From an uncultured Thiohalocapsa sp. (GTDB lineage: Bacteria; Pseudomonadota; Gammaproteobacteria; Chromatiales; Chromatiaceae): a stretch of 64,000 nucleotides of DNA. Shown one piece after another: positions 2,259-58,381 of the stretch (the stretch's first letter is position 1; each line of letters opens with the position of its first letter). The position numbers and the translations under genes were made by a program. Under the pieces are notes generated by a model. It did no database searches. It was given only the letters and a program-made list of their open reading frames with translations, and was not told the DNA's origin. The stretch is from contig NZ_CAJXYK010000011.1 in the NCBI RefSeq assembly GCF_913063425.1, positions 1 through 64,000 of the forward strand, in the 5' to 3' direction.

Positions 2259-2822
2259 ATGGACCACTACCTGGACATTCGGCTACTGCCGGACCCGGAG
2301 TTTCCGCCGAGCATGCTCATGAACGCCCTTTTCGCGAAGCTCCACCGCGCGCTGGTCGACCTTGACAGCACGGCCATCGGGGTCAGCTTCCCGGACCATG
2401 CCTTGGAGCCCCTGTCCCTTGGCGAACGGCTGCGGCTGCATGGAGAGACGAGGGCGCTGACGGAGCTTATGAGCCGCGACTGGCTGCGTGGCATGCGCGA
2501 CCATGCCGAGCTCCACGGCCCCGCCGAGATCCCCGGCGGGGCGCCACACCGCGCGGTGCGGCGCGTGCAAGCCAAGAGCAGCCCCGAGCGACTGCGACGG
2601 CGCCTGATCAAGCGCAAGGGTATCGACCAGGTCGCCGCAAGCGAAGCCATCCCCGATCAGGCCGCGGAGCGTCTCCACCTGCCCTTCGTCACGCTCCAGA
2701 GCCGCAGCTCCGGCCAAACATTCCGACTCTTCATCGAGCACGGCCCACCGCAACCAGAGCCAACCCCCGGCCCCTTCGGCTACTACGGCCTGGGCCGAGG
2801 GGCAACCGTCCCCTGGTTCTGA
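2259..2822 (+). CDS. csy4: Csy4 / Cas6f, CRISPR repeat endoribonuclease
   Basis: The protein is 187 residues, the same length as P. aeruginosa Csy4, and starts MDHYLDIRLLPDPEFPP. The catalytic pair of the family is present at the same positions: His29 (in FAKLHRAL) and Ser148 (in LQSRSSGQ). The arginine-rich helix that enters the RNA major groove is clear at about residues 98-120 (RAVRRVQAK then RLRRRLIKRK). It ends in the usual VPWF. Csy4 cuts each repeat transcript at the 3' side of the stem and stays bound to the crRNA. It lies directly beside the leader, so its substrate array is the one that follows. Confidence 0.97.
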   Translation: MDHYLDIRLLPDPEFPPSMLMNALFAKLHRALVDLDSTAIGVSFPDHALEPLSLGERLRLHGETRALTELMSRDWLRGMRDHAELHGPAEIPGGAPHRAVRRVQAKSSPERLRRRLIKRKGIDQVAASEAIPDQAAERLHLPFVTLQSRSSGQTFRLFIEHGPPQPEPTPGPFGYYGLGRGATVPWF

Positions 2823-2952
2823 ACCAAATTTCCAGCCCTCGACACAGAGGGCTTGGAATCAGGCACTTACGACATCCCCCAGAACTTGGGGTAGACTGCG
2901 TCTGCGCGCACTCCGTTCTTTAACATCAAGGAATTAGAGCGTTTCGCGTCTA
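2823..2952 (+). promoter_or_regulatory. CRISPR leader between csy4 and the first repeat
   Basis: The 130-nt gap between the csy4 stop and the first repeat is the only non-coding stretch at the well-preserved end of the array, so it is taken as the leader. It holds two short inverted repeats: one at 2831-2857 (GCCCTC/GAGGGC core extended by TCCA/TGGA) and one near 2876-2890 (CCCCA/TGGGG). Neither is followed by a T tract. At 2924-2936 the sequence CATCAAGGAATTA matches the IHF consensus WATCAANNNNTTR at all but the first base, 16 bases before repeat 1. IHF bending of the leader is known to assist spacer integration in I-E and I-F systems. A clear -10/-35 promoter was not assigned. Confidence 0.7.
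2924..2936 (+). promoter_or_regulatory. IHF-like binding site in the leader
   Basis: CATCAAGGAATTA fits WATCAANNNNTTR except that the first position is C rather than A/T. It sits 16 bases upstream of the first repeat, in the most AT-rich part of the leader. This position is suitable for bending DNA during leader-end spacer insertion, but binding is inferred from sequence alone. Confidence 0.5.
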
Positions 2953-5900
2953 GTTCACTGCCGCATAGGCAGCTCAGAAAATCCGGGCCGTCGGCCGCTT
3001 CGGCGCCGAAGAGTTCACTGCCGCATAGGCAGCTCAGAAACACACCGCCCTCGCCGCCCTCACGGACCTCCTGTTCACTGCCGCATAGGCAGCTCAGAAA
3101 TGGTCGTACTGCTCGACGGTCACATCGGGCTCGTTCACTGCCGCATAGGCAGCTCAGAAAACGCTGCAGCACCCCCTGGTGCACAATCAGGCGTTCACTG
3201 CCGCATAGGCAGCTCAGAAAATTGATCCCCTCTGGGCCTTCGAGAGCTACACGTTCACTGCCGCATAGGCAGCTCAGAAAACCAGCAGGCCGACCTGCTG
3301 CCGGCTGAGGCCGTTCACTGCCGCATAGGCAGCTCAGAAAGGCCACATCGTCCTCCAGCGCGACCATGCCGCGTTCACTGCCGCATAGGCAGCTCAGAAA
3401 AGGACGCCCACCCCGCCCCCGCCGACAGCCTGGTTCACTGCCGCATAGGCAGCTCAGAAATATCGCGACCACGCGACCTGACCCCGTGACCGGTTCACTG
3501 CCGCATAGGCAGCTCAGAAAACGACGCTGGAGGCATCCAGGAATCGCGCCGAGTTCACTGCCGCATAGGCAGCTCAGAAATGTGCCCCGACTGCGCGCAG
3601 CGGGAGCCCGACGTTCACTGCCGCATAGGCAGCTCAGAAAACGACGCGCCCGATCTGCGCGGCGTTGGCGGCGTTCACTGCCGCATAGGCAGCTCAGAAA
3701 TCGAGTTTCAGCTCGCCGAAGGCCGCGCCGACGTTCACTGCCGCATAGGCAGCTCAGAAATCGTCGACGGTGACCTCGACCTCGCCGGCCAGGTTCACTG
3801 CCGCATAGGCAGCTCAGAAACGGCCGCGGCGCGCAGGCTCGCGGCGGTATCGGTTCACTGCCGCATAGGCAGCTCAGAAACTGGAGGGCGGCGGGGCGAG
3901 CGAGTATGTGCAGGTTCACTGCCGCATAGGCAGCTCAGAAATGCCGCCGAGCTGGGCCGACCCGCTGCACATCGTTCACTGCCGCATAGGCAGCTCAGAA
4001 AAGGTACACCTGGACGTCCTCGATGATGCACGGGTTCACTGCCGCATAGGCAGCTCAGAAAGCTGAGCCCAGCACCACCCGCGCCGCCAGCGCGTTCACT
4101 GCCGCATAGGCAGCTCAGAAACTGCAACTTCGTGAGCTGCTTGAACACTTCGCCGTTCACTGCCGCATAGGCAGCTCAGAAAAGTTGCAGGCAGAGCTGA
4201 GGAAGGCCGAGGAAGTTCACTGCCGCATAGGCAGCTCAGAAATCTTTCGAGGCGACGGCCAACCAAACCTTTGAGTTCACTGCCGCATAGGCAGCTCAGA
4301 AAAGGCGCGACTACCAGACGCCACTGCACACCGTGTTCACTGCCGCATAGGCAGCTCAGAAATCTACGACGGCGCCGGCGAGGCCACGCAGCAGGTTCAC
4401 TGCCGCATAGGCAGCTCAGAAATGGCCGCGACCCCCGTGGGCGGCAGCCTGTCGGTTCACTGCCGCATAGGCAGCTCAGAAACTGCTGCGGCAGCAGCTC
4501 TGTGCGCCGCCAATGTTCACTGCCGCATAGGCAGCTCAGAAATTTGACGGCGAGCCGGCGGCGGGGCATCGGGTGTTCACTGCCGCATAGGCAGCTCAGA
4601 AATCGGGCGCGCCTTTGCTGCCCGGCGAGCTTGGGTTCACTGCCGCATAGGCAGCTCAGAAAAGGCTGCCGCCGGTGCCGCGGTGCGTGCTGTCGTTCAC
4701 TGCCGCATAGGCAGCTCAGAAAACAGCACACTGCGCGAGCTCCTGTGCCGACAAGTTCACTGCCGCATAGGCAGCTCAGAAATTGAGGGCGGCGGCGGTG
4801 TCCTTGCTCTGCGCGTTCACTGCCGCATAGGCAGCTCAGAAACCGTCGCGCTGCTCGATCTCGCGCGGGGTAACGTTCACTGCCGCATAGGCAGCTCAGA
4901 AATTCGGGCTGCCGCCGGACGCGGTGCCATGCTCGTTCACTGCCGCATAGGCAGCTCAGAAATGCCGAGCTGGCATATTGCTGCTGCACTCGAAGTTCAC
5001 TGCCGCATAGGCAGCTCAGAAATGATAGCGCGCGATGACCGGCCCACCGAAGGTGTTCACTGCCGCATAGGCAGCTCAGAAATCCTGCCGGGCGATGGAC
5101 TGCTGCACGCGGTCGTTCACTGCCGCATAGGCAGCTCAGAAATCCGGGCTCTCGGTCTCGCCGCGCAAATGCACGTTCACTGCCGCATAGGCAGCTCAGA
5201 AAGTCTAGCGGGATTTTGTTACGCTGTGCGGTATGTTCACTGCCGCATAGGCAGCTCAGAAAACCCGCGCAGCAGCAGGCGCCCGTCCGGCCCCGTTCAC
5301 TGCCGCATAGGCAGCTCAGAAATGGGCGCTGTACGGCACGCATATCGCCGGGCTGTTCACTGCCGCATAGGCAGCTCAGAAATGGTCGCCAGCGAGCCAG
5401 TGAGCCAGCCCCAGGTTCACTGCCGCATAGGCAGCTCAGAAAAGCATCAACCCCAGGACCCGTGCCCGAGGACCGTTCACTGCCGCATAGGCAGCTCAGA
5501 AAAACTACAACGCCGTCCTCGACCGCTTCGATACGTTCACTGCCGCATAGGCAACTCAGAAATCGCACTGCGGCTGCTGATCACGGCGCGCGATGTTCAC
5601 TGCCGCATAGGCAGCTCAGAAATTTCGACGCGAGCGCGACCCCTGGGGCGAGCCGTTCACTGCCGCATAGGCAGCTCAGAAAGCGGCAAGCAGCGCGGCG
5701 AGGCTGGCGCCGATGTTCAGTGCCGCATAGGCAGCTCAGAAAACCATTTGCTCGCGTGGATAAGCAGCGGGCCGGTTCACTGCCGCATAGGCAGCTCAGA
5801 AATCGACGCCGCCGGGCAGATGCAGCGGATGGCCGTTCACTGCCGCATAGGCAGCTCAGAAATATGCGAGCAGCACCTGGGCGACACTCACTGAGTTCAC

Positions 5901-8900
5901 TGCCGCATAGGCAGCTCAGAAAAGGTAGCCCGCGCCGCCGCCCGGCGCCGTCGCGTTCACTGCCGCATAGGCAGCTCAGAAATCCAGCGCCGGCGCAGCC
6001 AGCGCGCGAGCAGGGTTCACTGCCGCATAGGCAGCTCAGAAACTGCTGCTGCGCGCCAGCGGCGCGATCACTGGGTTCACTGCCGCATAGGCAGCTCAGA
6101 AATCAGCCCAGTCGAGCAGACCCTGCGCCGTAATGTTCACTGCCGCATAGGCAGCTCAGAAAGAGCGGCGGCCGGCCGGACAGATCCGCGTACGGTTCAC
6201 TGCCGCATAGGCAGCTCAGAAATGGCTCTGCGCTGGCGCGCAGTGCCGGGGCGGGTTCACTGCCGCATAGGCAGCTCAGAAACTCGCGGCCGGCCCGGTC
6301 GAGATCACGAGCGGCGTTCACTGCCGCATAGGCAGCTCAGAAATTGCGCTGGTGGACCCGGACGCGTATGAGGTGGTTCACTGCCGCATAGGCAGCTCAG
6401 AAAAGCTCCACGGCCTGCCGGAATCCCAGCCACACGTTCACTGCCGCATAGGCAGCTCAGAAATGGTGATCCTGGAGCCCGAGGAGCCGGTGGTCGTTCA
6501 CTGCCGCATAGGCAGCTCAGAAATCGGTGCCGCCGGTGTCGACCCACCCGGCCGTGTTCACTGCCGCATAGGCAGCTCAGAAAAAGCTCGGCTGGCGGCT
6601 GTTCCGCAACAACGTGTTCACTGCCGCATAGGCAGCTCAGAAAGTCCCGCCCCTCGGTGCCCAGAGTGTGGGCATGTTCACTGCCGCATAGGCAGCTCAG
6701 AAAATCACCTCGTCGGCGTCGATGCGCCGGAGCGCGTTCACTGCCGCATAGGCAGCTCAGAAATGCAGCGTGCGGTGGACGCTGGAGCGCCCGATGTTCA
6801 CTGCCGCATAGGCAGCTCAGAAATCGCGCGCGTGCCCGGGGCCGCGGAGGCCGACGCTCACTGCCGCATAGGCAGCTCAGAAATCGCGCAGCAGCAGCGC
6901 GGCAGCGAACTGCCCGTTTACTGCCGCATAGGCAGCTCAGAAATGGTTGCGGTCGGCCAGCTCGCGCAGGGCGTCGTTCACTGCCGCATAGGCAGCTCAG
7001 AAACGCACAACCCCATGGCACGGCGACCGCAGCGCGTTCACTGCCGCATAGGCAGCTCAGAAAACCACCACGCGCGCGGGCGGCTCGCCGTAGACGTTCA
7101 CTGCCGCATAGGCAGCTCAGAAATAAGCGCCCGGCTCGGCATCCCCCGCGCCCAGGTTCACTGCCGCATAGGCAGCTCAGAAAACCGACTACGCCACCGC
7201 CGCCCAGGGCGCCACGTTCACTGCCGCATAGGCAGCTCAGGAATCGGCGCTGTCCGGCACGACGATGCACTGGCCGTTCACTGCCGCATAGGCAGCTCAG
7301 AAAACCGGCTGACACTGCACCGTGACGGCGCTGCCGTTCACTGCCGCATAGGCAGCTCAGAAAGCTCCGGCTCGAAGGGCTCGGCTCGGAAATCCGTTCA
7401 CTGCCGCATAGGCAGCTCAGAAACGCCGGATCAGGGACGACGGCGCAGGCGCCCTGTTCACTGCCGCATAGGCAGCTCAGAAAGAGTGGGCGCAGCTGGC
7501 CGCGGCCCACGCGGAGTTCACTGCCGCATAGGCAGCTCAGAAACCCCGCTCCACCCCCCAGCCACCGTGCTCACCGTTCACTGCCGCATAGGCAGCTCAG
7601 AAAACTCGCGCATCAGCGCCGCATAGCCGCCGTGCGTTCACTGCCGCATAGGCAGCTCAGAAACAACCTGCCCGCCGCCATCGTCGAGGCCGTGCGTTCA
7701 CTGCCGCATAGGCAGCTCAGAAATCGGAGATGGCCAACGCCCTGGCGGAGTTGATGTTCACTGCCGCATAGGCAGCTCAGAAACAGCCGTCGCGGTCGTC
7801 GTAGCCCCTCGCGCCGTTCACTGCCGCATAGGCAGCTCAGAAATCGCCGAAGCCGCCCGCGGCTACGGCGCCGACGTTCACTGCCGCATAGGCAGCTCAG
7901 AAAAGCCAGCGGCGGGTGCGCAGGCGGTTGCGGCGGTTCACTGCCGCATAGGCAGCTCAGAAATGCCGAGCTGGCATATTGCTGCTGCACTCGAAGTTCA
8001 CTGCCGCATAGGCAGCTCAGAAAACCAGGTCCACGATGCCGACCAGGTGGCCCAGGTTCACTGCCGCATAGGCAGCTCAGAAATTCCGCGAGACAACCGC
8101 AGGCTTTCGCCACCAGTTCACTGCCGCATAGGCAGCTCAGAAATGCGCCAGCCGCTTTGCGGCGCGCCCCGCGGCGTTCACTGCCGCATAGGCAGCTCAG
8201 AAAAGCACTACCGGGCCTATGCCGCACGCGACACAGTTCACTGCCGCATAGGCAGCTCAGAAAGAGCAGACCGCGCGGCCCGCATGCAAGCCGAAGTTCA
8301 CTGCCGCATAGGCAGCTCAGAAATGCGCGAGCGCCAGGAGCGCGCCAACCGTGCCGTTCACTGCCGCATAGGCAGCTCAGAAATGGTCGTTGCCGCCCGG
8401 GTCGGACAGCGTGATGTTCACTGCCGCATAGGCAGCTCAGAAAGTCCGGGCCGCCCTCGATGCGCACAGGCGAGCGTTCACTGCCGCATAGGCAGCTCAG
8501 AAAACCGACGTCCGTGAGGCCATCGGCAGCGGGCTGTTCACTGCCGCATAGGCAGCTCAGAAATCGGCCATTGCCGCCGGGTAGTTCTCGGTAGCGTTCA
8601 CTGCCGCATAGGCAGCTCAGAAATTTGAGGCCCGATAAATGCCGCTCTACGAAGCGTTCACTGCCGCATAGGCAGCTCAGAAAGTGCAATACAGGCCGTT
8701 ACGCAGCGTGTCATCGTTCACTGCCGCATAGGCCGCTCAGAAACGCAGGCCACCGTGATCGCCTGCGCGTTCTTCGTTCACTGCCGCATAGGCAGCTCAG
8801 AAATATCGATTCGCACGGCGCCAAGCTCTTGCTCGGTTCACTGCCGCATAGGCAGCTCAGAAAAAGTGGAAGCCATCGAGATTGGCGACGACTGGGTTCA

Positions 8901-11145
8901 CTGCCGCATAGGCAGCTCAGAAAAAGAGATGCCCGACGACACCCCCGAGCTGACCGTTCACTGCCGCATAGGCAGCTCAGAAATCCTGTCCTCGTCGCTC
9001 TCTCTCGTATCTGTAGTTCACTGCCGCATAGGCAGCTCAGAAACGCCGGCGACCGCGCGCGGCTTCACCGCCGGTGTTCACTGCCGCATAGGCAGCTCAG
9101 AAACACGACCCTGTCCGCATCCGCGGCACCCGTTACGTTCACTGCCGCATAGGCAGCTCAGAAATTTTGGTTGCCCCGGGAATCCACCCGGGGCGAGTTC
9201 ACTGCCGCATAGGCAGCTCAGAAATGCCGGTCCAGGGCGGCCTCGTAGGCGTCCGCGTTCACTGCCGCATAGGCAGCTCAGAAATGCGCGAGATACGCCG
9301 CCATCCGTGCGACGCAGTTCACTGCCGCATAGGCAGCTCAGAAACACGAATCCCTGTGACCAGGTGAAGACCTCGCGTTCACTGCCGCATAGGCAGCTCA
9401 GAAAAGGCCACAGGCGGCTCGATGGGCTCGCCGCAGGTTCACTGCCGCATAGGCAGCTCAGAAAATGATCCTGTACTGCACCGAAAACCAAGGCTTGTTC
9501 ACTGCCGCATAGGCAGCTCAGAAAATGTGCAATCGCACGACGAGGTCGCCGACGTATGTTCACTGCCGCATAGGCAGCTCAGAAATGAGGGCGCTCAGGG
9601 GGCCGCTGGCGGGGACGGTTCACTGCCGCATAGGCAGCTCAGAAACTCGCCCAGGCGTACAGCCTCGAGGGCTCGCGGTTCACTGCCGCATAGGCAGCTC
9701 AGAAAATGGTGAGCCGCGCTAGCTGGTATCGACACCTGTTCACTGCCGCATAGGCAGCTCAGAAATGATCGACTACGCCAGCGCGCACGCGCTGGACGTT
9801 CACTGCCGCATAGGCAGCTCAGAAAAGGGCTCCGGCATCGGCAGCGGCGGCTACGGCGTTCACTGCCGCATAGGCAGCTCAGAAATATGCCGTGGGCCAG
9901 ATGGGCCGCTTCGCCGCGTTCACTGCCGCATAGGCAGCTCAGAAAAAATCCGCGCCGGAGTCCGGAATCAGCGTCGAGTTCACTGCCGCATAGGCAGCTC
10001 AGAAAAAGCTGCGCGCGGCGGTCGAGGCGATGGAGCCGTTCACTGCCGCATAGGCAGCTCAGAAAACGACGTACACCGACAGCGGCGACGGCGTGCTGTT
10101 CACTGCCGCATAGGCAGCTCAGAAAAGCGTCGTGGTCGCCGATGCCCCGGTCCACAGGTTCACTGCCGCATAGGCAGCTCAGAAAAGGCCGAGCAGGTCC
10201 ACCGGTGTCGCGCTCTGGTTCACTGCCGCATAGGCAGCTCAGAAATCATCGAGCACGACAGTCGGGGTGTAGTCGCCGTTCACTGCCGCATAGGCAGCTC
10301 AGAAAACAGGTGGTAGTACGGCGGCTCGCCCAACGTCGTTCACTGCCGCATAGGCAGCTCAGAAAGTCACGGTGCGCTATCGCCCCGCCGGCGGGGAGTT
10401 CACTGCCGCATAGGCAGCTCAGAAAAACCAATGAGCCCGACCGCCAAACACCTGGACGTTCACTGCCGCATAGGCAGCTCAGAAACAACGTCGGCCCGTG
10501 CTGGCGGCTGATCTGCCGTTCACTGCCGCATAGGCAGCTCAGAAAATGCTTAGGCCGCCGGCGCTTGCCCCGCTGCCGTTCACTGCCGCATAGGCAGCTC
10601 AGAAATACACGCCAGAGTACATGCGCGCGTGTCTCGTGTTCACTGCCGGATAGGCAGCTCAGAAATTGAGGTTGCCCCAGGCCCGCACCTGCTTCCGGTT
10701 CACTGCCGCATAGGCAGCTCAGAAACTCACCCTGGTGCTGGGCTGGATCGGCGCCCTGTTCACTGCCGCATAGGCAGCTCAGTAATGCCGAGCGTAGGGC
10801 GTGCCGTCCTCGGGCGCGTTCACTGCCGCATAGGCAGCTCAGAAAATCCCGCCCACCGGCGCCACCCTCACCCTGGCGTTCACTGCCGCATAGGCAGCTC
10901 AGAAATCCATCAGGCGCTCGATTTCCTCCACCGCCCAGTTCACTGCCGCATAGGCAGCTCAGAAAGCGCGCCACTCCTGCTCCTCGGACATGTATCCGTT
11001 CACTGCCGCATAGGCAGGTCAGAAATGTTCGCCCTCGCCGGTGAGCCGCGCCAGATCGTTCACTGCCGCATAGGCAGCTCAGAAAATGTTCGTGCTGGAC
11101 TACATTCGCACCAGTCCGTTCACTGCCGCATAGGCAGCGGAGAAA
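2953..11145 (+). CRISPR. Type I-F CRISPR array, 137 repeats and 136 spacers
   Basis: A 28-nt repeat starting GTTCACTGCC and ending CTCAGAAA recurs every 60 nt without a break; its stem is CTGCC/GGCAG around the loop GCATA, the Csy4 substrate shape. Counting repeat positions from 2953 to 11118 gives 137 copies. Spacers are 32 nt, except five of 33 nt, shown by 61-nt steps ending at repeats 3914, 4155, 6316, 9137 and 9558. Ten repeats carry substitutions: those at 5535, 5715, 6856, 6916, 7216, 8716, 10638, 10758, 10998 and 11118. The last is the most changed (CAGCGG in place of CAGCTC). Decay at the right end and csy4 at the left put the leader on the left and transcription on +. Spacers 34 (4963-4994) and 84 (7964-7995) are identical. 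Confidence 0.99.
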
Positions 11146-50247: not shown

Positions 50248-50955
50248 ATGACCGCGGCGCCGCGCATGCCATGCTGCGCCCCGCCGCGCCGTCTCCCGCG
50301 CCCTTCGGTCGCGGGCGGCGCTCTGCTCGTCACGCTGATCATCGCCTGCATCGTCGCGGTGCCTGGGGCCGTTGCACAGCCGCCCGCCACTGATGCGGTG
50401 ATTTTGCCCCCGCGCGTGAGCGACTGGCTGCCGAGCGACTGGTGGACGCCGGTGCGCGTGGTGAGCGGGCGACTTGACGACGACCCCTATGACGATTTGG
50501 CCGTGTTGGTGGAGCGTCGGCAGGCGGCGCCGGACGACCCGGCCTATCCGCGCGGCGCCCGCGGCATTTTCGTTGTCTTCGGCAGACCGGACGGCGGCTG
50601 GCGGCGGGGTCCGCTGGCGCCGGGCCTGCTGCCCTGCGTGGAGTGCACCAGCAGCTTGAGCGGCAACATCGGCGCCGCCGTGGTGGACATGGCCATCACC
50701 GCCGACGGGCTCCTGGAGCTGAGCTGGGTGGAGCGTCGTCGCGTCACCAAGGCGGTGCGCGTCGTCATCGGCTGGGACCCAACCTTTGGCGCCCTCGGCC
50801 TGCAGACCGACGACATCACCATCATCCGCCCGCGCGGCGGGCGCAGCCATGTGCGCCGCGACTACCGCGCCGGGCGCATGTGGGTGGACGGGGTGCCCGA
50901 GGACATGCCGGCGCGGTTCATCCCCATCGAAGAGATTTCCGCCGGTCAGTTTTGA
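50248..50955 (+). CDS. Secreted hypothetical protein upstream of the OpgH-like gene
   Basis: A 235-residue protein with a signal peptide (GGALLVTLIIACIVAVPGAV cleaved near AVAQ). The mature part has beta-strand patterns reminiscent of FG-GAP/VCBS units (RVVSGRLDDDPYDDLAVLVE) and a Cys pair in LPCVECTSS. I cannot name the family. The ATG at 50248 is taken as the first after the preceding stop; 50266 is an alternative. Its place just before a glucan glucosyltransferase suggests a periplasmic partner, but no OpgG/OpgD similarity was seen. Confidence 0.7.
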   Translation: MTAAPRMPCCAPPRRLPRPSVAGGALLVTLIIACIVAVPGAVAQPPATDAVILPPRVSDWLPSDWWTPVRVVSGRLDDDPYDDLAVLVERRQAAPDDPAYPRGARGIFVVFGRPDGGWRRGPLAPGLLPCVECTSSLSGNIGAAVVDMAITADGLLELSWVERRRVTKAVRVVIGWDPTFGALGLQTDDITIIRPRGGRSHVRRDYRAGRMWVDGVPEDMPARFIPIEEISAGQF

Positions 50956-51199
50956 CGCCTGCCGGCACTGCCGGGCCGGGGTCAGATGCCACGCGCGCGG
51001 CGACACGGTGCTGCGCGGCGGGTCCAGTGGTCGCTGCCGGGTGACCGCTCGTCACCATGCTGTGCTTGCAATATTAGGGATGTTCCTCATAACGCTCGGG
51101 AGTCGGGGCCTGCGGGCGCTCGCCCGCCCGGCAGAGCCGCAGGCTGCTGCTGCGACGGACGCCCCATGCAGTTTCCCATCTGAGTGCAGGATTGATCCC

Positions 51200-53044
51200 A
51201 TGCGAAGACCGCAGCCCCCCTCCGCGGTCGGTGCAGCAGCCGACCCGGTGTCCCCTGTTGCCGTCGGTGTGCCCGTCCGCCGCCGTCGCCAAATGTTTCT
51301 GCTGTTGGTCTCGGCAACCCTGCTGGTGGCCGTTGGGCTCATGATCTGGACCCTGTCCGCCGGCGGCTTCGGCGGCCTGGATTTGGCCATTACGGCCCTG
51401 TTCGCATTGACGGTGCCCTTCAACGCCATCGCCTTCTGGAACGCGGTCATCGGTCTGGTGCTGGCGCGCAGCAGCCCTGACCTGGCGCGCGCCCTGTGCC
51501 CGCCGCTGGTGGAGGCCACGGACCGCAGCCCCATCACCACCAGCACCGCGCTGCTCGCCTGTGTGCGCAACGAGGACGCGGCCATCGTCGGCCGCAACCT
51601 GGACGTGATGATCGAGGGGCTGGTGGCTTCCGGCGTGGCCGGGCACTTCCACGTCTATGTGCTGAGCGACTCCCACTGGCCGGAGGTCATTGCCGCAGAG
51701 GAGGCGCGCATCGCCGAGCTCGCCGAGCGCTGGCACGACCGCATGGCCGTCACCTACCGGCGGCGTGCCGACAACCCCGGCTTCAAGGCCGGCAACATCC
51801 GGGACTTCTGCGAGCGCTGGGGCCACCGGCACGACTTCATGCTGGTGCTTGACGCCGACAGCCTGATGGAGGCGGACGTCATCCTGCGCATGGTGCGCAC
51901 CCTGCAGCAGGCCCCGCAGCTGGGCATCCTGCAGTCTTTGATGGCGGGGCTGCCCACCACCAGCGCCTTCGCGCGGCCGCTGCAGTTCGGCATGCGCATG
52001 CTGATGAACGGTTTCACCGCCGGCAACGCCTGGTGGCAGCAGGACGTGGGGCCCTACTGGGGCCACAACGCGCTGATTCGCCTGCGGCCCTTCATCGAGC
52101 ATTGCCATCTGCCGCCGCTGCCGGGCCGGGGACCCCTGTCCGGCTGGGTGCTGAGCCACGACCAGGTGGAGGCAGCGCTCATGCGCCGGGCCGGCTACGA
52201 GGTGCGGGTGATGCTGCTGGAGAGCGGCAGCTGGGAGGAGACGCCGACGACGCTCACCGAGTACCTGCGCCGGGACCTGCGCTGGTGCCACGGCAACATG
52301 CAGTACTTCAAGCTGCTGCGCTGGCCCGGTCTGCATCCGGTGAGCCGGATGAATCTGCTGCTCGCCACCGGCGGCTTCATCGGCTCCACCGCCTGGGTGC
52401 TGCTGATGCTGCTGTTCGCGCTGCCGCTTGCCTTGGACAACGGGCCGACGTTCCATCCAGGGCCCGGCCTCGCGGTGTTTCTGCTGAGCATGGGGATGGC
52501 CTTTGCACCCAAGGTCGCAGCACTGCTGGAGGTGGCACTGGAGCGCGACCAGCGCCTGCGCTTCGGCGGTGCCCCGCGGCTGCTGGCGGGCGCCCTCGGG
52601 GATATGGCCTTCTCCGTGGTCATGGCGCCCATCCTGGCGGTGGGGCATGCGGCCTTCATCGGCGGCCTCGCCTTCGGCCGCGCGGCGGTCTGGGGCGCGC
52701 AGCGGCGCGCCGTACACTGGGTCCGGCCGCTGGCGGCGCTGCGCCGGCTGTGGCCGCAGACACTGTTCGGTGCCGTCGGTGTCGGCTGGTTTGCCTGGCT
52801 CAGCCCGCCCGGCGCGCTGTTCTTCTCGCCCTTCTTCGGCATTGCGCTCATTGCCGTGCCGGTGGCCGTGCTGACGTCGGTGCCCGCGCTGGGTCGCTTC
52901 CTGGCCCATATCGGTCTGTGGCGTATCCCGGAAGAGACGGTACCCGCGCCCGCGGTGGCAGCACTGCATCTGCCGGCGGTGCCCATGCCCCCGCGCCGGA
53001 GCCCGAAGCGGCTCGGCGACGCCGCTGTCGAGCCCGCAGACTGA
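51200..53044 (+). CDS. OpgH/MdoH-like glucan glucosyltransferase
   Basis: A 614-residue GT2 membrane enzyme. Two N-terminal membrane spans (about residues 32-52 and 60-90) precede the catalytic domain: TTSTALLACVRNEDAAIVGR, DADSLMEADVILRMVR, GHNALIRLRPFIEHC, and the QxxRW-like RRDLRWCHGNMQYFKLLRWP. Several C-terminal spans follow. OpgH makes the beta-1,2-glucan backbone of osmoregulated periplasmic glucans. It is shorter than E. coli OpgH (about 850), lacking much of the N-terminal extension, and opgG is not adjacent. The start is the ATG at 51200. Confidence 0.86.
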   Translation: MRRPQPPSAVGAAADPVSPVAVGVPVRRRRQMFLLLVSATLLVAVGLMIWTLSAGGFGGLDLAITALFALTVPFNAIAFWNAVIGLVLARSSPDLARALCPPLVEATDRSPITTSTALLACVRNEDAAIVGRNLDVMIEGLVASGVAGHFHVYVLSDSHWPEVIAAEEARIAELAERWHDRMAVTYRRRADNPGFKAGNIRDFCERWGHRHDFMLVLDADSLMEADVILRMVRTLQQAPQLGILQSLMAGLPTTSAFARPLQFGMRMLMNGFTAGNAWWQQDVGPYWGHNALIRLRPFIEHCHLPPLPGRGPLSGWVLSHDQVEAALMRRAGYEVRVMLLESGSWEETPTTLTEYLRRDLRWCHGNMQYFKLLRWPGLHPVSRMNLLLATGGFIGSTAWVLLMLLFALPLALDNGPTFHPGPGLAVFLLSMGMAFAPKVAALLEVALERDQRLRFGGAPRLLAGALGDMAFSVVMAPILAVGHAAFIGGLAFGRAAVWGAQRRAVHWVRPLAALRRLWPQTLFGAVGVGWFAWLSPPGALFFSPFFGIALIAVPVAVLTSVPALGRFLAHIGLWRIPEETVPAPAVAALHLPAVPMPPRRSPKRLGDAAVEPAD

Positions 53045-53046
53045 GC

Positions 53047-53835
53047 ATGCCGCCGTCCATCCGTTTCCCGAGCGGGGCCGCCCGCCCCCGGCTGCCGGCG
53101 GCCTTGCGCGGCCTGCTCGGTGTGCTGCGCTCCATCGGCATCTATCACCGGCCGCACCGCCGCGGTGCCCTCGACCGCATGCATGCGCGCTTCGCCGGAC
53201 GCGGCGACCTGGTGTTCGACATCGGCGCCCATGTGGGCGACCGGGTGGCGAGCTTCCGCCGGCTCGGCATGCGCGTGGTGGCGGTGGAGCCGCAGCCGCT
53301 GCTGGCGCAGCTGCTGCGGCTCCTGTACGCGCGGGACCGCAGGGTGAGCGTCGTTCAGGCGGCGGTCGGTGCCGCGCCCGGCAGCATTGACCTGCACCTG
53401 AACCTGGACAATCCCACCGTCAGCACGGCATCCAGCGACTTCATCCATGCCGCCGCCGTCGACAGCGCCTGGCAGGGCCAGCATTGGGAGCGCCAGGTGC
53501 GGGTGCCCGTCACCACCCTCGATGCCCTGATTGCCCGTTTCGGTGAGCCACGCTTCATCAAAATCGATGTGGAAGGCTACGAGGATCAGGTGCTGAAGGG
53601 GCTCAGCCTGGCACCGACGGCCTTCTCCTTCGAGTTCACCACCATCCAGCGGCCCGTGGCCCGCGCGGCGCTCGCGGAGTGCCGGCGGCTCGGCGCCTCC
53701 AGGTTCAACGCCGCGCTCGGCGAGAGTCAGCGCCTGCTGCACGCCGGCTGGACCGATGCGGCCAGCATGCGGGCCTGGCTGGATGCACTGCCGGCGCATG
53801 CCAACTCGGGCGACATCTATGCCATGCGGGGTTGA
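53047..53835 (+). CDS. FkbM-family SAM-dependent methyltransferase
   Basis: A 262-residue protein with SAM-binding motif VFDIGAHVGDRVASFRRLG (about residues 57-75), acidic loop AVEPQPLLAQLL, and the FkbM post-motif FIKIDVEGYEDQVLKGL (about 175-190). FkbM enzymes make O-methyl groups on sugars or polyketides. It begins right after the OpgH-like stop, so a role in modifying the glucan is plausible but unproven. Confidence 0.9.
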   Translation: MPPSIRFPSGAARPRLPAALRGLLGVLRSIGIYHRPHRRGALDRMHARFAGRGDLVFDIGAHVGDRVASFRRLGMRVVAVEPQPLLAQLLRLLYARDRRVSVVQAAVGAAPGSIDLHLNLDNPTVSTASSDFIHAAAVDSAWQGQHWERQVRVPVTTLDALIARFGEPRFIKIDVEGYEDQVLKGLSLAPTAFSFEFTTIQRPVARAALAECRRLGASRFNAALGESQRLLHAGWTDAASMRAWLDALPAHANSGDIYAMRG

Positions 53836-53958: not shown

Positions 53959-54948
53959 ATGACGGAGACGACACGGGCAAGGGCCTTCTGGGTCACGGGA
54001 CCGAACCGGGGCGAGATCCAGAGCGAAGACCTGCCGCCGCTGCCGGCGGACTGGGTCCGGGTGGTGACGCGCTTCTCCGGCATCAGCCGCGGCACCGAGG
54101 GCCTGGTGCTCCGGGGTGAGGTGCCGCCGAGCGAATACCAGCGCATGCGCGCGCCCTTCCAGGCGGGGGACTTCCCGGCGCCGGTGAAGTACGGCTACAT
54201 CAGCGTCGGCGAGGTGGTGGCGGGGCCTTCGCACCTGCACGGGCGCCTGGTCTACTGCCTGTATCCGCACCAGGACATCTACCAGGTGCCCGCGGCGGCG
54301 GTGACACCCCTGCCGGCCGCGCTGCCGCCCGGGCGCGCCGTGCTCGCCGCCAATCTGGAGACGGCGTTGAACGGGCTCTGGGACGCCGCCCCCCGGATCG
54401 GCGACCGCATTGCGGTGGTCGGTGCCGGCACCCTCGGCTGCCTGGTGGCCTGGCTCGCTGCCCGTATGCCGGGCTGCGCCGTGGAGCTCATCGACACCGA
54501 TCCGGCCCGGGCGGCGATTGCCGAAGCCCTGGGGGCGGCGTTCCGGATGCCGCAGGGGGCGAGTGCGGATGCGGACCTGGTGATCCATGCGAGCGGCAAC
54601 CCGGCGGGCCTCGCCACGGCGCTCGGTCTCGCCGGCTTCGAGGCGACGGTGCTGGAGCTCAGCTGGTTCGGCGCCAAGCCGGTCACCCTGTCGCTGGGGG
54701 AGGCCTTTCATCAGCGCCGGCTGCGGCTGGTGTCCTCGCAGGTGGGCAGCGTCGCAGCAGCCCAGCGCCCGCGCTGGGACCACAGCCGGCGGCTGGCGCT
54801 GGCGCTGTCGCTGCTGGCGGAGTCCGCGGCCGCGGTCCTGGATGCATTGATTACCGACGAGGCCGGGTTCGGGGAATTGCCCGCGGTGCAGGCGCGGCTC
54901 GCCGCGCAGCCCGGCGGGACCCTGACCCAGCGCATTCGGTACGGGTGA
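53959..54948 (+). CDS. MDR-family dehydrogenase (zinc-type alcohol dehydrogenase-like)
   Basis: A 329-residue medium-chain dehydrogenase. The N-terminal GroES-like half reads SGISRGTEGLVLRGEVPPSE, then GDFPAPVKYGYISVGEVV; the Rossmann half has VVGAGTLGCLVAWLAAR (about residue 155). The structural and catalytic zinc cysteines of classical enzymes are absent, so it may not use zinc. It is the first gene of a co-directional set with the PTPS-like, glycosyltransferase and methyltransferase genes, suggesting a redox step in that pathway. Substrate unknown. Confidence 0.87.
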   Translation: MTETTRARAFWVTGPNRGEIQSEDLPPLPADWVRVVTRFSGISRGTEGLVLRGEVPPSEYQRMRAPFQAGDFPAPVKYGYISVGEVVAGPSHLHGRLVYCLYPHQDIYQVPAAAVTPLPAALPPGRAVLAANLETALNGLWDAAPRIGDRIAVVGAGTLGCLVAWLAARMPGCAVELIDTDPARAAIAEALGAAFRMPQGASADADLVIHASGNPAGLATALGLAGFEATVLELSWFGAKPVTLSLGEAFHQRRLRLVSSQVGSVAAAQRPRWDHSRRLALALSLLAESAAAVLDALITDEAGFGELPAVQARLAAQPGGTLTQRIRYG

Positions 54949-55031
54949 TCCTGGCCCGTGTCCGCCTGGGGTGGGGCTGCGGTGCGCTGACGCGGGAGCC
55001 GTGGGGCGTTGGGTGACCCTGTCGCAGCCGA

Positions 55032-55055
55032 TCCCGATCCCGATCCCCATCCCGA
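55032..55055 (+). repeat. Short TCCCGA hexamer array
   Basis: Four copies of the hexamer TCCCGA, one changed to TCCCCA, in the 205-nt gap before the PTPS-like gene. This is the same unit as the nine-copy array at 32994. Confidence 0.8.
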
Positions 55056-55153
55056 TGCCATGCTGGCGCGCTTGGGTGTCGCGCGTTGCTGGTGCTCGCC
55101 ATGGACCTGCTGTTGCCGGTAGGCTGAGGGCCTGATTCTGTCTGGAGTGACGC

Positions 55154-55558
55154 ATGTACAGCCTGACCGTCCGCGACCACATCATGATCGCCCACAGCTT
55201 CCGGGGCGAGATCTTCGGCCCGGCGCAGCGCCTGCACGGCGCCACCTATGTGGTGGATTGCGAGCTGAAGCGCCCGGCGCTGGACGCCGACGGCCTGGTG
55301 GTGGATATCGGCAAGGCCGCGGCCGTGCTCGGCGAGGTGTTGGGCGCGCTCAACTACCGCAACCTGGACGACGAGCCGGACTTCGCCGGGCAGAACACCA
55401 CCACGGAGTACCTCGCCCGGGCCATCTTCGAGCGCATGGCCGCGCGTATCGCCGCCGGCGACCTGGGGCCGGGCGCCACCGGGCTCAGTGCGATGCGTAT
55501 CACGCTGGCCGAGTCGCATGTCGCCTGGGCCAGCTACGAGGGCGCCCTCGGCGGCTGA
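55154..55558 (+). CDS. 6-pyruvoyl-tetrahydropterin synthase-like protein with altered active site
   Basis: A 134-residue T-fold protein starting [20 protein letters not shown]. The family's first zinc His is kept (IAHSF), and the pterin-anchoring Glu region appears as [15 protein letters not shown]. In standard PTPS/QueD a Cys six residues before HGH is catalytic and both His of HGH bind zinc; here the segment is [13 protein letters not shown], so the Cys is Gly and the second His is Ala. NYRNLDD and [10 protein letters not shown] are conserved. It therefore probably binds a pterin or deazapurine-like ligand but does different chemistry. It is 21 nt before the glycosyltransferase gene. Confidence 0.85.
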
Positions 55559-55579
55559 CGCGCCGGCCGCCCGCGCCTG

Positions 55580-56677
55580 ATGTCCCCGCCCGGCCCAATG
55601 TCCCACCGGCCCACTGCCCAGAGCCAGCCCGACGCCCTGCACCTGCTGCTGCCGGGCAGTCTGGATGCCGTCACCGGCGGTACGCTGTACGACAGGCGCA
55701 TGTGCGAAGCGCTGCGCGTCCAGGGCCGGTTGATCCGCGTGCACAACCTGGATGCGAGCTTCCCGCAGCCGTCGGCAGCGGCGCTCACGGCCGCGGATGT
55801 GCTGCTGGCGGGCCTCCCGAAGGGGGCGCTGGTGGTGGTGGACGGGCTCGCGTTCGGTGCCATGCCGGACCTCGCCGCCCGCCACGCGGCGCGGCTCCGC
55901 CTGGTGGCGCTGGTGCACCATCCGCTGGCGCTGGAGACGGGCTTGGACGCTGCGACCGCGGAGCGACTGCACGCCAGCGAAGCCCGCGCCCTGCGCCATG
56001 CCAGCCGCGTGCTGGTCACCAGCGCCCACACCGCCCGCCTGCTGGCGGACTATGCGGTCCCGCCGGAGCGGGTGCGCGTGGTGGAGCCGGGCACGGACCC
56101 GGCGCCGTCCGCCGCGGGCAGCGCCGTCGGCGGCGGCCCGGTGCAGCTGCTCTGTGTCGGCAGTGTAACGCCGCGCAAGGGGCACCAGCTGCTGGTGGAG
56201 GCCCTGGGGCAGCTCCGCGCGCTCGACTGGCGACTCGACTGCGTGGGCAGCCTGACCCGCGATCCGCAGACGGTGGCGGCGCTGGCAGGTCGCATCGAGA
56301 CCCTTGGGCTTGTCGGGCGGGTGCGCCTGCTGGGGGAGCTCGGCGCCGCGGACCTCGCCGGCTGCTACCGCAGTGCGGATGTCTTCGTGCTCGCGAGCCT
56401 GTTCGAGGGCTACGGCATGGCCTTCGCCGAGGCCCTGGCCCACGGCCTGCCGGTGCTGGGCACCACCGGCGGCGCCATCCCGGACACTGTGTCTGCTGAT
56501 GCCGGGGTCCTGGTGCCGCCCGGCGATGTGGCGCCGCTGCGCGAGGCACTGCACCGGCTGCTCACCGACGCCGGGCTGCGCCACCGCCTTGCCGCCGGCG
56601 CTGCCCGGGCGCGGGCACGGCTGCCGGACTGGCCTGCGGCGGCGGCACGCTTTGCAGCGGCCTTGGCCGATGCCTGA
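55580..56677 (+). CDS. GT4-family glycosyltransferase
   Basis: A 365-residue GT-B enzyme. The N-terminal half contains DAVTGGTLYDRRMCEALR; the C-terminal half has LLCVGSVTPRKGHQLLVEAL (about residue 190) and the donor-binding FEGYGMAFAEALAHGLPVL (about 278, the E-x7-E motif). It is soluble. GT4 enzymes transfer sugars from nucleotide donors with retention. Its 8-nt overlap with the methyltransferase gene and closeness to the PTPS-like gene suggest that it glycosylates a small molecule made by this set. Confidence 0.9.
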   Translation: MSPPGPMSHRPTAQSQPDALHLLLPGSLDAVTGGTLYDRRMCEALRVQGRLIRVHNLDASFPQPSAAALTAADVLLAGLPKGALVVVDGLAFGAMPDLAARHAARLRLVALVHHPLALETGLDAATAERLHASEARALRHASRVLVTSAHTARLLADYAVPPERVRVVEPGTDPAPSAAGSAVGGGPVQLLCVGSVTPRKGHQLLVEALGQLRALDWRLDCVGSLTRDPQTVAALAGRIETLGLVGRVRLLGELGAADLAGCYRSADVFVLASLFEGYGMAFAEALAHGLPVLGTTGGAIPDTVSADAGVLVPPGDVAPLREALHRLLTDAGLRHRLAAGAARARARLPDWPAAAARFAAALADA

Positions 56678-57566
56678 GCTCAAATTCAGCGACGACTGGC
56701 TCGCGCTGCGGGCGCCGGCGGATGCCGCGGCCCGGGCGGATCGGCTGGTGCAGCACCTCCGGGCCCTGCCGACGGCAGCCGATGCTGTGCTGGAGGTGCT
56801 GGACCTCGGCTGCGGCACCGGGGCAAACCTGCGCCATCTGGCGCCCCTGCTGGCCCGCACCGGACACCTGCGCCAGCATTGGTGCTGTGTGGACCAGGAC
56901 GCGGCGCTGCTGGCGCGGCTGCCGGCGCGCACCGCCCGCTGGGCCGAGACGACCGACCTGTGCTGCACGCCGCGAGCCCATGGGCTCTGTCTCGAGGGTG
57001 CCGGCTGGCGCGCGGAGGTGGACGTGCAGCGCCTGGATCTGCACGCGGCCCTCGCCGACCTGCCGCTGCCGGCGGCGGGGCTGGTGACCGCCTCGGCGCT
57101 GCTGGACCTGGTGTCCGGTCCCTGGCTGCAAGGGCTGCTGGCGCGCTGCCGGCACGCGGGCTGCGGCCTGTTGTTCGCGCTGAGCTATGACGGCCGTTGC
57201 TCGCTGTCACCGGCGCATGCGCTGGATGCCGCCGTCATCGATCTGGTGAACCGTCATCAGCGCACCGACAAGGGTTTCGGCCCGGCCCTCGGGCCGAGGG
57301 CGGCGGACGATGCCGCAGCGCGTTGCCGGGCGCTCGGCTGGCGGGTGGAGGTGGCACCGAGCGACTGGGTGCTCGGGCCCACGGACGCCCCGATGCAGCG
57401 CGCGCTGCTGACGGGTTGGCATCAGGCGGCGGCGGAGCTGGCAGCCGGGGAGGGCGCTGGTCCGGCGGCGGGGCTGGACGCCTGGCTGACGGCGCGGCTC
57501 GCCTGGGTGGACGCCGGCACCTCGGTGCTGCGCATCGGCCACCTGGATCTGGTGGCGCTGCCCTGA
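56670..57566 (+). CDS. Class I SAM-dependent methyltransferase
   Basis: A 298-residue protein with SAM motif VLEVLDLGCGTGANLRHLAP (about residues 41-60), acidic residue in CVDQDAALLARL, and SALLDLVSGPWL (about 145). Three Cys in a row of positions (HWCCVD, DLCCTPRAHGLC) are unusual for a cytoplasmic methyltransferase and could bind metal. It overlaps the glycosyltransferase gene by 8 nt, so the two are coupled. The substrate is likely the product of the same cassette. Confidence 0.88.
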   Translation: MPELKFSDDWLALRAPADAAARADRLVQHLRALPTAADAVLEVLDLGCGTGANLRHLAPLLARTGHLRQHWCCVDQDAALLARLPARTARWAETTDLCCTPRAHGLCLEGAGWRAEVDVQRLDLHAALADLPLPAAGLVTASALLDLVSGPWLQGLLARCRHAGCGLLFALSYDGRCSLSPAHALDAAVIDLVNRHQRTDKGFGPALGPRAADDAAARCRALGWRVEVAPSDWVLGPTDAPMQRALLTGWHQAAAELAAGEGAGPAAGLDAWLTARLAWVDAGTSVLRIGHLDLVALP

Positions 57567-57578
57567 GGCGCCGAGCCC

Positions 57579-57842
57579 ATGCGTGAGTACGTGCCCATCG
57601 CCTGCGCCCGGCACGAGGCGCTGGAGCTCGCGATCCTGAAGCGCCGGCGGCTGCGCATCGCGCTGAGCGATGCGGGCGGCGGCGGCGTGCTCGTGGCGCT
57701 GCCCGTCGACATCCGTATCGCCGATGCCGCGGAGTGGCTGCTGGTGCGTGCGGCCGACGGCGGCGAGCGGCGGCTGCGACTGGACTGGATCCTGAGCGCG
57801 GAGCCCGCCGACGGCGTGGGTCCGGCCGGCGGCGGGCCCTGA
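57579..57842 (+). CDS. Rho-binding antiterminator (Rof/YaeO-like)
   Basis: An 87-residue protein starting MREYVPIACARHEALELAIL, which matches the start of Rof-family proteins (PI.C..Y..LE.A); a small beta-barrel follows, ending LRLDWILSAEP. E. coli Rof binds Rho and blocks its RNA entry site. It is 12 nt after the methyltransferase gene and 20 nt before the next gene. Members of this superfamily also occur in other small cassettes, so regulation of Rho is inferred, not shown. Confidence 0.72.
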   Translation: MREYVPIACARHEALELAILKRRRLRIALSDAGGGGVLVALPVDIRIADAAEWLLVRAADGGERRLRLDWILSAEPADGVGPAGGGP

Positions 57843-57862
57843 AGCGGTTGGGAGCCAAGCCC

Positions 57863-58381
57863 GTGTCGATCCGCTCCCGATCGCTGGACTCGCGCCCGCC
57901 CGAGGCGCTGCCGGTGACCGTCACCATCGAGATCCCACGCGGCAGCTTCCGCAAGGTGGGCTCCACCGGGCGGCTCGATTTTCTTTCACCGCTGCCCTGT
58001 CCGTTCAACTACGGCAGCATCCGCGAGCGGGTGGGGCTCGAAGGCGACCTGCTCGACGCCGTGCTGCTCGGTCCGCGGCTGCCCGCCGGCAGCGTGGTGG
58101 CGGCCTTTGCCTGCGGGGCCGTGCGATTTCAGGATCGCGGGCTCTTCGACGACAAGCTCATCTGCACCAGCATCCCCTTGGATGCGCGCAGCGCCGAGGG
58201 TGCGAGATGGGTGGCCCTCGCCTGCTTTCGCGTCTACGGCTTCGCCAAAGGGCTCCTGAATCTGTGGCGCGGGCGACCGGGGCGCACCCGTGTGAGCGCC
58301 TGGGTCAGCGCAGAGCGCGCCTGGCGCTGCTCGCGACCCCGGTCATGTCTGGAATGGGACGGACCGCCGGTGCCGTTCTAG
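57863..58381 (+). CDS. Divergent family I inorganic pyrophosphatase-like protein
   Basis: A 172-residue protein. GTG 57863 is the preferred start, after GGGAG. Residues match the pyrophosphatase fold: VTIEIPRGSFRK (Glu20 and Lys29 equivalents), FNYGSI (Tyr55), EGDLLD in place of DGDPLD (Asp65 replaced by Glu; Asp67 and Asp70 kept) and FQDRGLFDDK (Asp97, Asp102, Lys104). The Arg43, Glu31 and Tyr51 equivalents are lost. It may hydrolyse another phosphate substrate or have weak activity. It closes the co-directional cassette from 53959. Confidence 0.78.
   Translation: MSIRSRSLDSRPPEALPVTVTIEIPRGSFRKVGSTGRLDFLSPLPCPFNYGSIRERVGLEGDLLDAVLLGPRLPAGSVVAAFACGAVRFQDRGLFDDKLICTSIPLDARSAEGARWVALACFRVYGFAKGLLNLWRGRPGRTRVSAWVSAERAWRCSRPRSCLEWDGPPVPF

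Follow-up and report, generated by a model that had tools for sequence, protein, structure and literature searches.

The gene cluster

A 64,000-nucleotide stretch of DNA from an uncultured Thiohalocapsa sp. (contig NZ_CAJXYK010000011.1; G000:C11:1-64000 in our numbering, hereafter the window), part of a 5.9 Mb genome, carries a run of forward-strand genes that encode a medium-chain dehydrogenase (DH; medium-chain dehydrogenase/reductase (MDR) type), a protein related to 6-pyruvoyltetrahydropterin synthase (PTPS), a glycosyltransferase (GT) and a class I S-adenosylmethionine (SAM)-dependent methyltransferase (MT). A first-pass annotation had described this run, together with a Rof-like protein and an inorganic-pyrophosphatase-like protein (PPA), as a candidate undescribed six-gene cassette that combines pterin-type chemistry with glycosylation and methylation. 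All six open reading frames (ORFs) are present where it placed them (Table 1). Comparison with other genomes reveals a conserved unit of DH, PTPS-like, GT and MT genes that ends after MT, so the union of PTPS-type, glycosylation and methylation genes stands. Together with genes that open GTP, as at the start of vitamin B2 synthesis, the unit probably makes an uncharacterised small molecule decorated with sugar and methyl groups.

Table 1. Genes of the cluster and its immediate neighbours, in window positions.
Feature	Position	Strand	Evidence and remarks
DH, medium-chain (MDR) dehydrogenase, BchC/polyol-dehydrogenase-like	53959..54948	+	ORF, fold; gene 1 of conserved four
PTPS-like T-fold protein, SCO6650 (3d7j) orthologue by sequence	55154..55558	+	PF01242 85.6 bits (cut-off 22.4)
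GT4-type glycosyltransferase (GT)	55580..56677	+	Glyco_trans_1_4 100.6 bits (cut-off 27)
Class I SAM-dependent methyltransferase (MT)	56670..57566	+	Fold; closing gene of conserved four
OpgH/MdoH-like membrane glucosyltransferase ORF, true start uncertain	50786..53044	+	NF003958 502.5 bits (cut-off 419)
FkbM-family methyltransferase, between OpgH and DH	~53029..53835 (start approximate)	+	TIGR01444 88.9 bits (cut-off 37.7)
Rof-like protein, 87 aa	57579..57842	+	PF07073 28.0 bits (cut-off 27.6, marginal); local neighbour, outside conserved unit
Diverged inorganic-pyrophosphatase-like protein (PPA), start uncertain	57863..58381	+	PF00719 32.1 bits (cut-off 23.5); local neighbour

The genes are tightly packed after the first, with 205 nt between DH and PTPS, 21 nt between PTPS and GT, an 8-nt overlap of GT with MT, and 12 nt between MT and Rof. 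PPA likely starts at GTG 57863 or GTG 57914 (the ORF ends at 58381) and lies 20 nt from Rof provided that it begins at GTG 57863; on that start, the description of the last five genes as overlapping or at most 21 nt apart can hold. The DH-PTPS gap contains a CCGATC tandem repeat of 4.8 copies (55028-55056).

A conserved four-gene unit

The PTPS-like protein, searched against named bacterial genomes, had at least 529 relatives. The best 80 loci were taken, which biases the set towards near relatives; 60 are actinobacterial (Streptomyces, Actinomadura, Micromonospora, Pseudonocardia and others) and 20 are from other, mostly proteobacterial, organisms, including Thauera, Halomonas/Vreelandella and Thiohalocapsa. 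Gene presence was counted with profile models and score cut-offs. Three of these loci (L035, L036, L070) appear to duplicate genomes G081, G186 and G174, respectively. Among these best 80 of at least 529 loci, DH is present at 79 and GT at 78; MT is a gene of its own at 72, or occurs at 75 when three copies that share one ORF with GT are counted. All four occur as separate genes at 71 loci, and in 71/71 of these they lie on a single strand in the order DH-PTPS-GT-MT. That this order is kept across phyla argues against a chance assembly. The incomplete loci are L042 and L070, which have no adjoining GT or MT, L045, which has no DH, and L072, L103 and L044 (a 3-kb contig), which have no MT. In two Halomonas-type loci (L080, L114), GT and MT are fused in one 657-aa ORF (GT at residues 1-359, MT at 360-656), and at L065 both occupy one longer ORF that is interrupted by the contig end. 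Identity to the window proteins across phyla is 63-93% for PTPS and 49-82% for DH; the nearest PTPS-like match listed, at 90% protein identity, is that of Thiohalocapsa halophila DSM 6210, and the window's own record is possibly absent from that list.

A phylogeny of the four concatenated proteins covers 90 loci; L035, L036 and loci lacking an alignable copy of all four had been dropped beforehand. The 54 actinobacterial loci form a single clade (support 0.91), to which five Thauera-Halomonas loci attach as a group. The window falls within a clade of 19 Chromatiaceae (support 0.99), and 3 of 22 Chromatiaceae rows lie elsewhere, namely L127, L128 and L122. The unit is thus old and mainly vertically inherited, with some transfer. 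L122 (G038:C19:21000-40000) is from a member of the genus, has a reductase and an OpgH gene adjoining the unit, and groups with Thioalkalivibrio L084, which suggests that its unit was replaced by transfer.

The neighbourhood survey that the first-pass annotation had proposed thus came out in its favour, since a conserved neighbourhood was found across genomes. Its view of a dedicated system, rather than of random neighbours, is upheld for the four core genes and fails for Rof and PPA. The Rof-like protein scores 28.3 bits against NF008636 (cut-off 117). In other genomes of the genus, Rof adjoins the unit in 3/8 and PPA in 4/8; at Chromatiaceae loci outside the genus there is no Rof or PPA match (0/21), and among the best 80 of at least 529 loci a match occurs only at L035 (T. 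halophila, same genus). At these loci Rof and PPA were seen beside the unit in this genus alone and, given the 0/21 count and their patchy presence within the genus, were rejected as parts of the pathway.

A PTPS fold with altered catalytic residues

By sequence, the PTPS-like protein is an orthologue of SCO6650 of Streptomyces coelicolor, whose structure (3d7j, deposited as 'Uncharacterized protein SCO6650') is its best solved match (phmmer E 1.6e-55 over 132 residues). It falls below the NCBIfam cut-offs for TIGR03367 (QueD; 41.6 vs 89.25 bits) and TIGR00039 (30.4 vs 125.5 bits). Aligned to 2g64, it has A24, A30 and Y68 at the positions that we take to be those of the catalytic Cys, the third zinc His and the catalytic His, respectively. 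In an alignment of 110 rows, which includes duplicate genomes (of the L035, L036 and L070 type), columns 24 and 30 are Ala in 110/110, and column 68 is Tyr in 100, Phe in 8, Leu in 2 and His in none. H14, H28 and E120 are kept in 110/110 rows, and E120 is presumably equivalent to the Glu that holds the pterin in PTPS and QueD. The family thus looks like one that retains a pterin- or pyrimidine-binding pocket without the known PTPS chemistry. A catalytically normal QueD or PTPS was rejected on the sub-cut-off TIGR scores and the replaced catalytic residues. SCO6650 itself reportedly contains no zinc and has no PTPS activity, and Spoonamore and Bandarian are said to have published on SCO6650 and SCO6655.

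Because the protein lacks the PTPS catalytic residues, pterin-type chemistry, which had been attributed to the cassette, is not established; the linked genes point instead to a diaminopyrimidine of the riboflavin pathway. The PF01242 matches listed for this genome are the window gene and one other frame, a 407-aa open frame at G000:C36:45130-46188 (L001, L003, L004) with three tandem PTPS domains that score 31.9, 96.7 and 57.3 bits.

The dehydrogenase, glycosyltransferase and methyltransferase

DH lies below the Pfam cut-off (ADH_zinc_N, 21.7 bits) and scores 49.6 bits against TIGR01202 (bchC; cut-off 291.25), and its family model, predicted with AlphaFold2 (AF2), has a complete MDR fold (predicted local distance difference test (pLDDT) 94.3). 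The model matches 4oh1 with Z 31.6 over 297 aligned residues (root-mean-square deviation (rmsd) 2.7), many MDR chains tie with it (Z ~30), and the structural matches include polyol and alcohol dehydrogenases with neither clearly preferred. Across 46 members Cys is invariant at no position, while S43, G45, T46, E47, Y78, G79 and Y80 are invariant in 46/46; on our reading, S43-x-G45-T46-E47 and Y78-G79-Y80 occupy the places that we take to be those of the zinc ligands. DH apparently has no catalytic zinc ligands.

The nearest solved chain to GT by sequence is 7qsg, a D-inositol 3-phosphate glycosyltransferase (E 4.7e-20), and E276 and E284 are invariant in 99/99 GT sequences. MT has weak Methyltransf_12/25 matches below the Pfam cut-offs. 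Its AF2 family model (pLDDT 96.2) has a class I methyltransferase fold and matches 3mgg_B with Z 19.3 (242 aligned, rmsd 3.6), among many near-equal matches that do not name a substrate.

Linked genes of GTP opening and reduction

Neighbour families at the 80 loci were identified by Pfam on representatives. The flanks contain GTP cyclohydrolase II (GCHII) at 58 loci, a creatininase-family protein at 44 and a RibD_C reductase at 40, and at least one of the three occurs at 68/80. In the genome of the window, RibD_C and creatininase-family frames lie next to each other (G000:C8:1672-2613 and 2617-3471) on a separate contig from the unit. The RibD-like protein (P0004) matches the reductase domain only, and its best match in the Protein Data Bank is 6p8c, a 2,5-diamino-6-ribosylamino-4(3H)-pyrimidinone 5'-phosphate reductase (E 9.3e-26). 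No lumazine or riboflavin synthase was seen on reading the conserved neighbour families. Likewise, no QueE- or QueC-like family was seen on reading the neighbour families that occur within 8 kb in at least 6 of the 80 loci, with no profile search made; on that reading, the 7-deazapurine product that had been named as a possible alternative is not supported and was set aside.

A residue pattern links the cyclohydrolase to the creatininase-family protein. The column read in the 58 cluster cyclohydrolases is the Tyr of the KLRAY motif, presumably Tyr105 of E. coli RibA. Loss of Tyr105 makes GCHII stop at the formylamino product. This column contains Met in 21, His in 14, Cys in 1, Gln in 1 and Tyr in 21. 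Every non-Tyr cyclohydrolase is accompanied by a creatininase-family gene (37/37 loci, all actinobacterial), and none of the 15 actinobacterial loci with Tyr has one. The profile-based count is 37/37 non-Tyr vs 5/21 Tyr loci with the formamidase (p 2.5e-10, which ignores relatedness); the less sensitive blast-clustered families, from which some formamidase and cyclohydrolase genes found by profile were absent, gave 27/34 vs 5/11 (Fisher p 0.053). Because Micromonosporaceae account for 13/15 of the actinobacterial Tyr rows, the number of independent events is small. In the genus Pseudonocardia, His goes with the formamidase at L059 and L073, whereas L090 has Tyr and no formamidase within the locus. 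One creatininase-family member, Sinorhizobium BrbF, has been proven to act as the formamidase on the formylamino compound (PMC9478397).

Co-occurrence and natural deletion

In a sample of 194 genomes of the family (PTPS-like matches at E up to 1e-10, reductase matches at E < 1e-40), the PTPS-like gene occurs in 40, the reductase in 40 and both in 38 (Fisher p 1.7e-35, which ignores relatedness). Six weaker reductase matches (1e-20 to 1e-26; G010, G016, G067, G072, G080, G161) were not counted, being ordinary RibD-like or fragmentary hits. In the phylum sample of 378 genomes, PTPS occurs in 23 and the reductase in 22, all of them inside the 23 (the exception is G279), and no genome has the reductase only; 6 of the 22 reductase rows contain stop codons in the matched stretch.

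The association holds where the genes lie apart. PTPS and reductase are 62 kb apart in G209, the reductase is on another draft contig than PTPS in 8 of the 9 PTPS-positive genomes of the window's genus (g1), and PTPS, GT-MT and reductase are spread over three contigs in 5/7 genomes of genus g16 (G015, G098, G137, G151, G174). In g16, genomes G066 and G119 gave no MT match, and the G015 sequence read on either side of PTPS showed no DH.

A natural deletion touches the same set of genes. G179, the only one of ten sampled genus members to give no PTPS match, keeps the FkbM and MT genes. At its locus (L235 = G179:C87:1-19000, 7780-10682), the 2.57 kb occupied in the window by DH, PTPS and the greater part of GT corresponds to ~0.2 kb, the 2.15 kb of OpgH corresponds to ~0.3 kb, and a C-terminal remnant of GT is left. 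Both gaps are internal to a 69-kb contig, and the genome gave no reductase match.

The OpgH-like and FkbM genes lie directly upstream of the unit in the window and overlap each other by ~16 nt; when the OpgH-like ORF is read from 50924, its homology starts near residue 104. An OpgH-like gene is near the unit in 17/29 Chromatiaceae loci and in 5/80 named-genome loci, of which L035 and L036 are probably the same genomes as L117 and L118, and it lies downstream on the opposite strand in the Halomonas-type L080 and L114 and in Tistlia L089. The FkbM-family gene (family F2) occurs in 11 Chromatiaceae loci. Since the OpgH-like gene recurs beside the unit and is missing together with DH, PTPS and GT in G179, its distribution suggests that some lineages also involve a membrane glucosyltransferase.

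A proposed GTP-derived pathway and its alternatives

The unit and its order, the co-occurrence, the GT-MT fusion and the residue pattern were observed directly. On balance, they incline us to regard the unit as the downstream half of a GTP-derived pathway that branches at the first riboflavin intermediate and ends in a glycosylated, methylated product. The steps up to the reductase draw on family identity and the residue pattern. GCHII would open GTP to 2,5-diamino-6-ribosylamino-4(3H)-pyrimidinone 5'-phosphate, with help from the creatininase-family formamidase in cases in which the cyclohydrolase does not remove the formyl group, and the stand-alone RibD_C-type reductase would then reduce the diaminopyrimidine phosphate or a close derivative. 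This upstream half would lie on another contig here and next door at most other loci seen. For what follows, we infer substrates, step order and product. The PTPS-like protein may bind the 2-amino-4-oxo-pyrimidine edge and perform or template a ring or side-chain step, and the MDR dehydrogenase may oxidise a hydroxyl, possibly of the ribityl chain. GT would add a sugar and MT a methyl group, presumably in consecutive steps because the two are fused in Halomonas-type loci. The product would be a glycosylated, methylated pyrimidine or pteridine, perhaps a cofactor, a pigment or an envelope or signalling compound, which membrane genes may anchor or export in many lineages. A bolder statement is that these genes define a new class of GTP-derived metabolite or cofactor, which arises from the first riboflavin intermediate through an altered PTPS fold, is then oxidised, glycosylated and methylated, is often attached to a membrane alcohol or glucan, and ranges from Streptomyces and Micromonospora to Halomonas and purple sulfur bacteria; this we hold tentatively, as a statement with slightly more against it than for it.

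Several observations weigh against a pathway of this kind. The loci and genomes compared are related by descent. In the family sample, G066 and G175 have the PTPS-like gene with no reductase match, and G100 and G165 show the reverse, although the G165 contig ends inside GT and its PTPS is possibly unassembled. The phylum count depends in part on linkage, because nearly all reductases in that sample are at most a few kb away from PTPS, and the G179 genome is only 87% complete. None of GCHII, formamidase and reductase occurs at 12/80 loci, several of them on short contigs. Proteins related to RibD_C can look like reductases of the dihydrofolate type, and a pterin may therefore be the substrate of this reductase. 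In 16 Chromatiaceae genomes (L145-L160) the sole GCHII-family match is one RibBA-type ORF each, a C-domain without the canonical motif, which leaves the intermediate without an obvious source in this organism; a second search of 8 of these 16 with the cluster GCHII gave nothing better. The creatininase-family gene occurs in 2/16 Chromatiaceae genomes only. The residue rule, clean in actinobacteria, fails in proteobacteria: 5 of 6 proteobacterial or other loci with Tyr have the formamidase, and the sixth, L039, ends inside the cyclohydrolase. This last exception touches one supporting argument and neither the unit nor the co-occurrence. The RibBA-type ORFs include G000:C13:43548-44024 in the genome of the window; the L157 copy, the one read, looks degenerate.

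A pterin glycoside, made from a GTP cyclohydrolase I dihydropterin with a RibD_C-type pterin reductase and decorated by GT and MT as in cyanobacteria, is a rather unlikely product. The PTPS fold with its fully conserved E120 would suit it, pterin glycosides are known in cyanobacteria (PMC13259868), and actinomycete RibD_C proteins are hard to distinguish from dihydrofolate reductase-type enzymes (PMC1971073). The cluster cyclohydrolase is, however, GCHII at 58/80 loci, its product lacks C8 and would need a new carbon source to become a pterin, and its pairing with the formamidase fits the GCHII route. No GTP cyclohydrolase I family was seen on reading the neighbour families in at least 6 loci, which were partly scanned.

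Less probable again is that the genes build and export a pyrimidine- or pteridine-bearing glycolipid or glucan of the envelope by means of a CDP-alcohol phosphatidyltransferase, a flippase-like LPG_synthase_TM protein, a sulfatase-fold protein and, in proteobacteria, OpgH. Of the 80 loci, 68 have a CDP-alcohol phosphatidyltransferase in their flanks, 66 an LPG_synthase_TM protein, 18 a sulfatase-fold protein and 9 a PAP2 protein, and the recurrence of the OpgH-like gene and its joint loss in G179 point the same way. At E 1e-6, however, neither CDP-alcohol transferase nor sulfatase-fold homologues were found in the genome of the window, and in 14 genomes they were found in 5 and 3, respectively, with matches of each family strong in three genomes, including the one that supplied the query. 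Neither can therefore be essential to the core. A chance or housekeeping run of unrelated genes in one operon, or a decayed remnant, is very improbable: it would suit the local positions of Rof and PPA, but is contradicted for the four-gene core by the order kept in 71/71 loci, the PTPS and DH identities across phyla and the co-occurrence on separate contigs.

Significance

If the proposed GTP-derived pathway is real, Streptomyces, Actinomadura, Micromonospora, Halomonas and purple sulfur bacteria share a conserved metabolite that is structurally uncharacterised, and SCO6650, a solved structure (3d7j) without an assigned function, would gain a pathway and a testable substrate. The pairing of cyclohydrolase residue and formamidase in actinobacteria is a directly testable sequence rule. 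Expression data from S. coelicolor suggest where the compound may be sought. The unknown-function gene SCO6652, which would be the MT of the cluster judging by tag numbering and the conserved order, is listed among the most differentially expressed genes in PMC3610822, with log2 values of 0.8, 4.3 and 4.1 at 24, 48 and 72 h relative to early mycelium (~4 log2 up in aerial and spore-stage mycelium); this points to a growth stage for the search. SCO6655, annotated as GTP cyclohydrolase II, is anticorrelated with modelled flux in PMC2853524, which is not discriminating because SCO2687, a second GCHII, behaves alike.

Comparison with known systems

Cyanobacterial pterin glycosides (cyanopterin, made with UDP-glucose:tetrahydrobiopterin glucosyltransferase) share with the proposed product the idea of a glycosylated GTP-derived heterocycle, but the available portion of PMC13259868 describes no such cassette. 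QueD and 6-pyruvoyltetrahydropterin synthase share the T-fold (PF01242) with the cassette protein, in which the catalytic Cys, the catalytic His and the third zinc His are replaced. The start of riboflavin synthesis (GCHII, the BrbF/ArfB formamidase and the RibD or archaeal-type reductase) uses the same protein families, and the actinobacterial residue pattern fits its two-step route, but riboflavin synthesis has no place for DH, the PTPS-like protein, GT and MT.

The closest counterpart is the SCO6650 cluster of S. coelicolor, which has the orthologous PTPS-like protein. In many Streptomyces loci the genes run DH, PTPS, GT, MT, LPG_synthase_TM, creatininase and GCHII, some with RibD before creatininase, and by tag numbering this order would fit SCO6649-SCO6655 (S. 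coelicolor is outside the loci read). Unlike Streptomyces, Thiohalocapsa has the upstream half on another contig and yielded no CDP-alcohol transferase or sulfatase-fold homologue (E 1e-6). The label 'undescribed' given to the cassette therefore needs dividing: one component already has a solved orthologue in 3d7j, and literature searches aimed at the pathway brought up no account of it. Set beside these systems, the unit is apparently a conserved GTP-derived pathway, undescribed as such and with a component that is partly known, rather than an oddity specific to the window.

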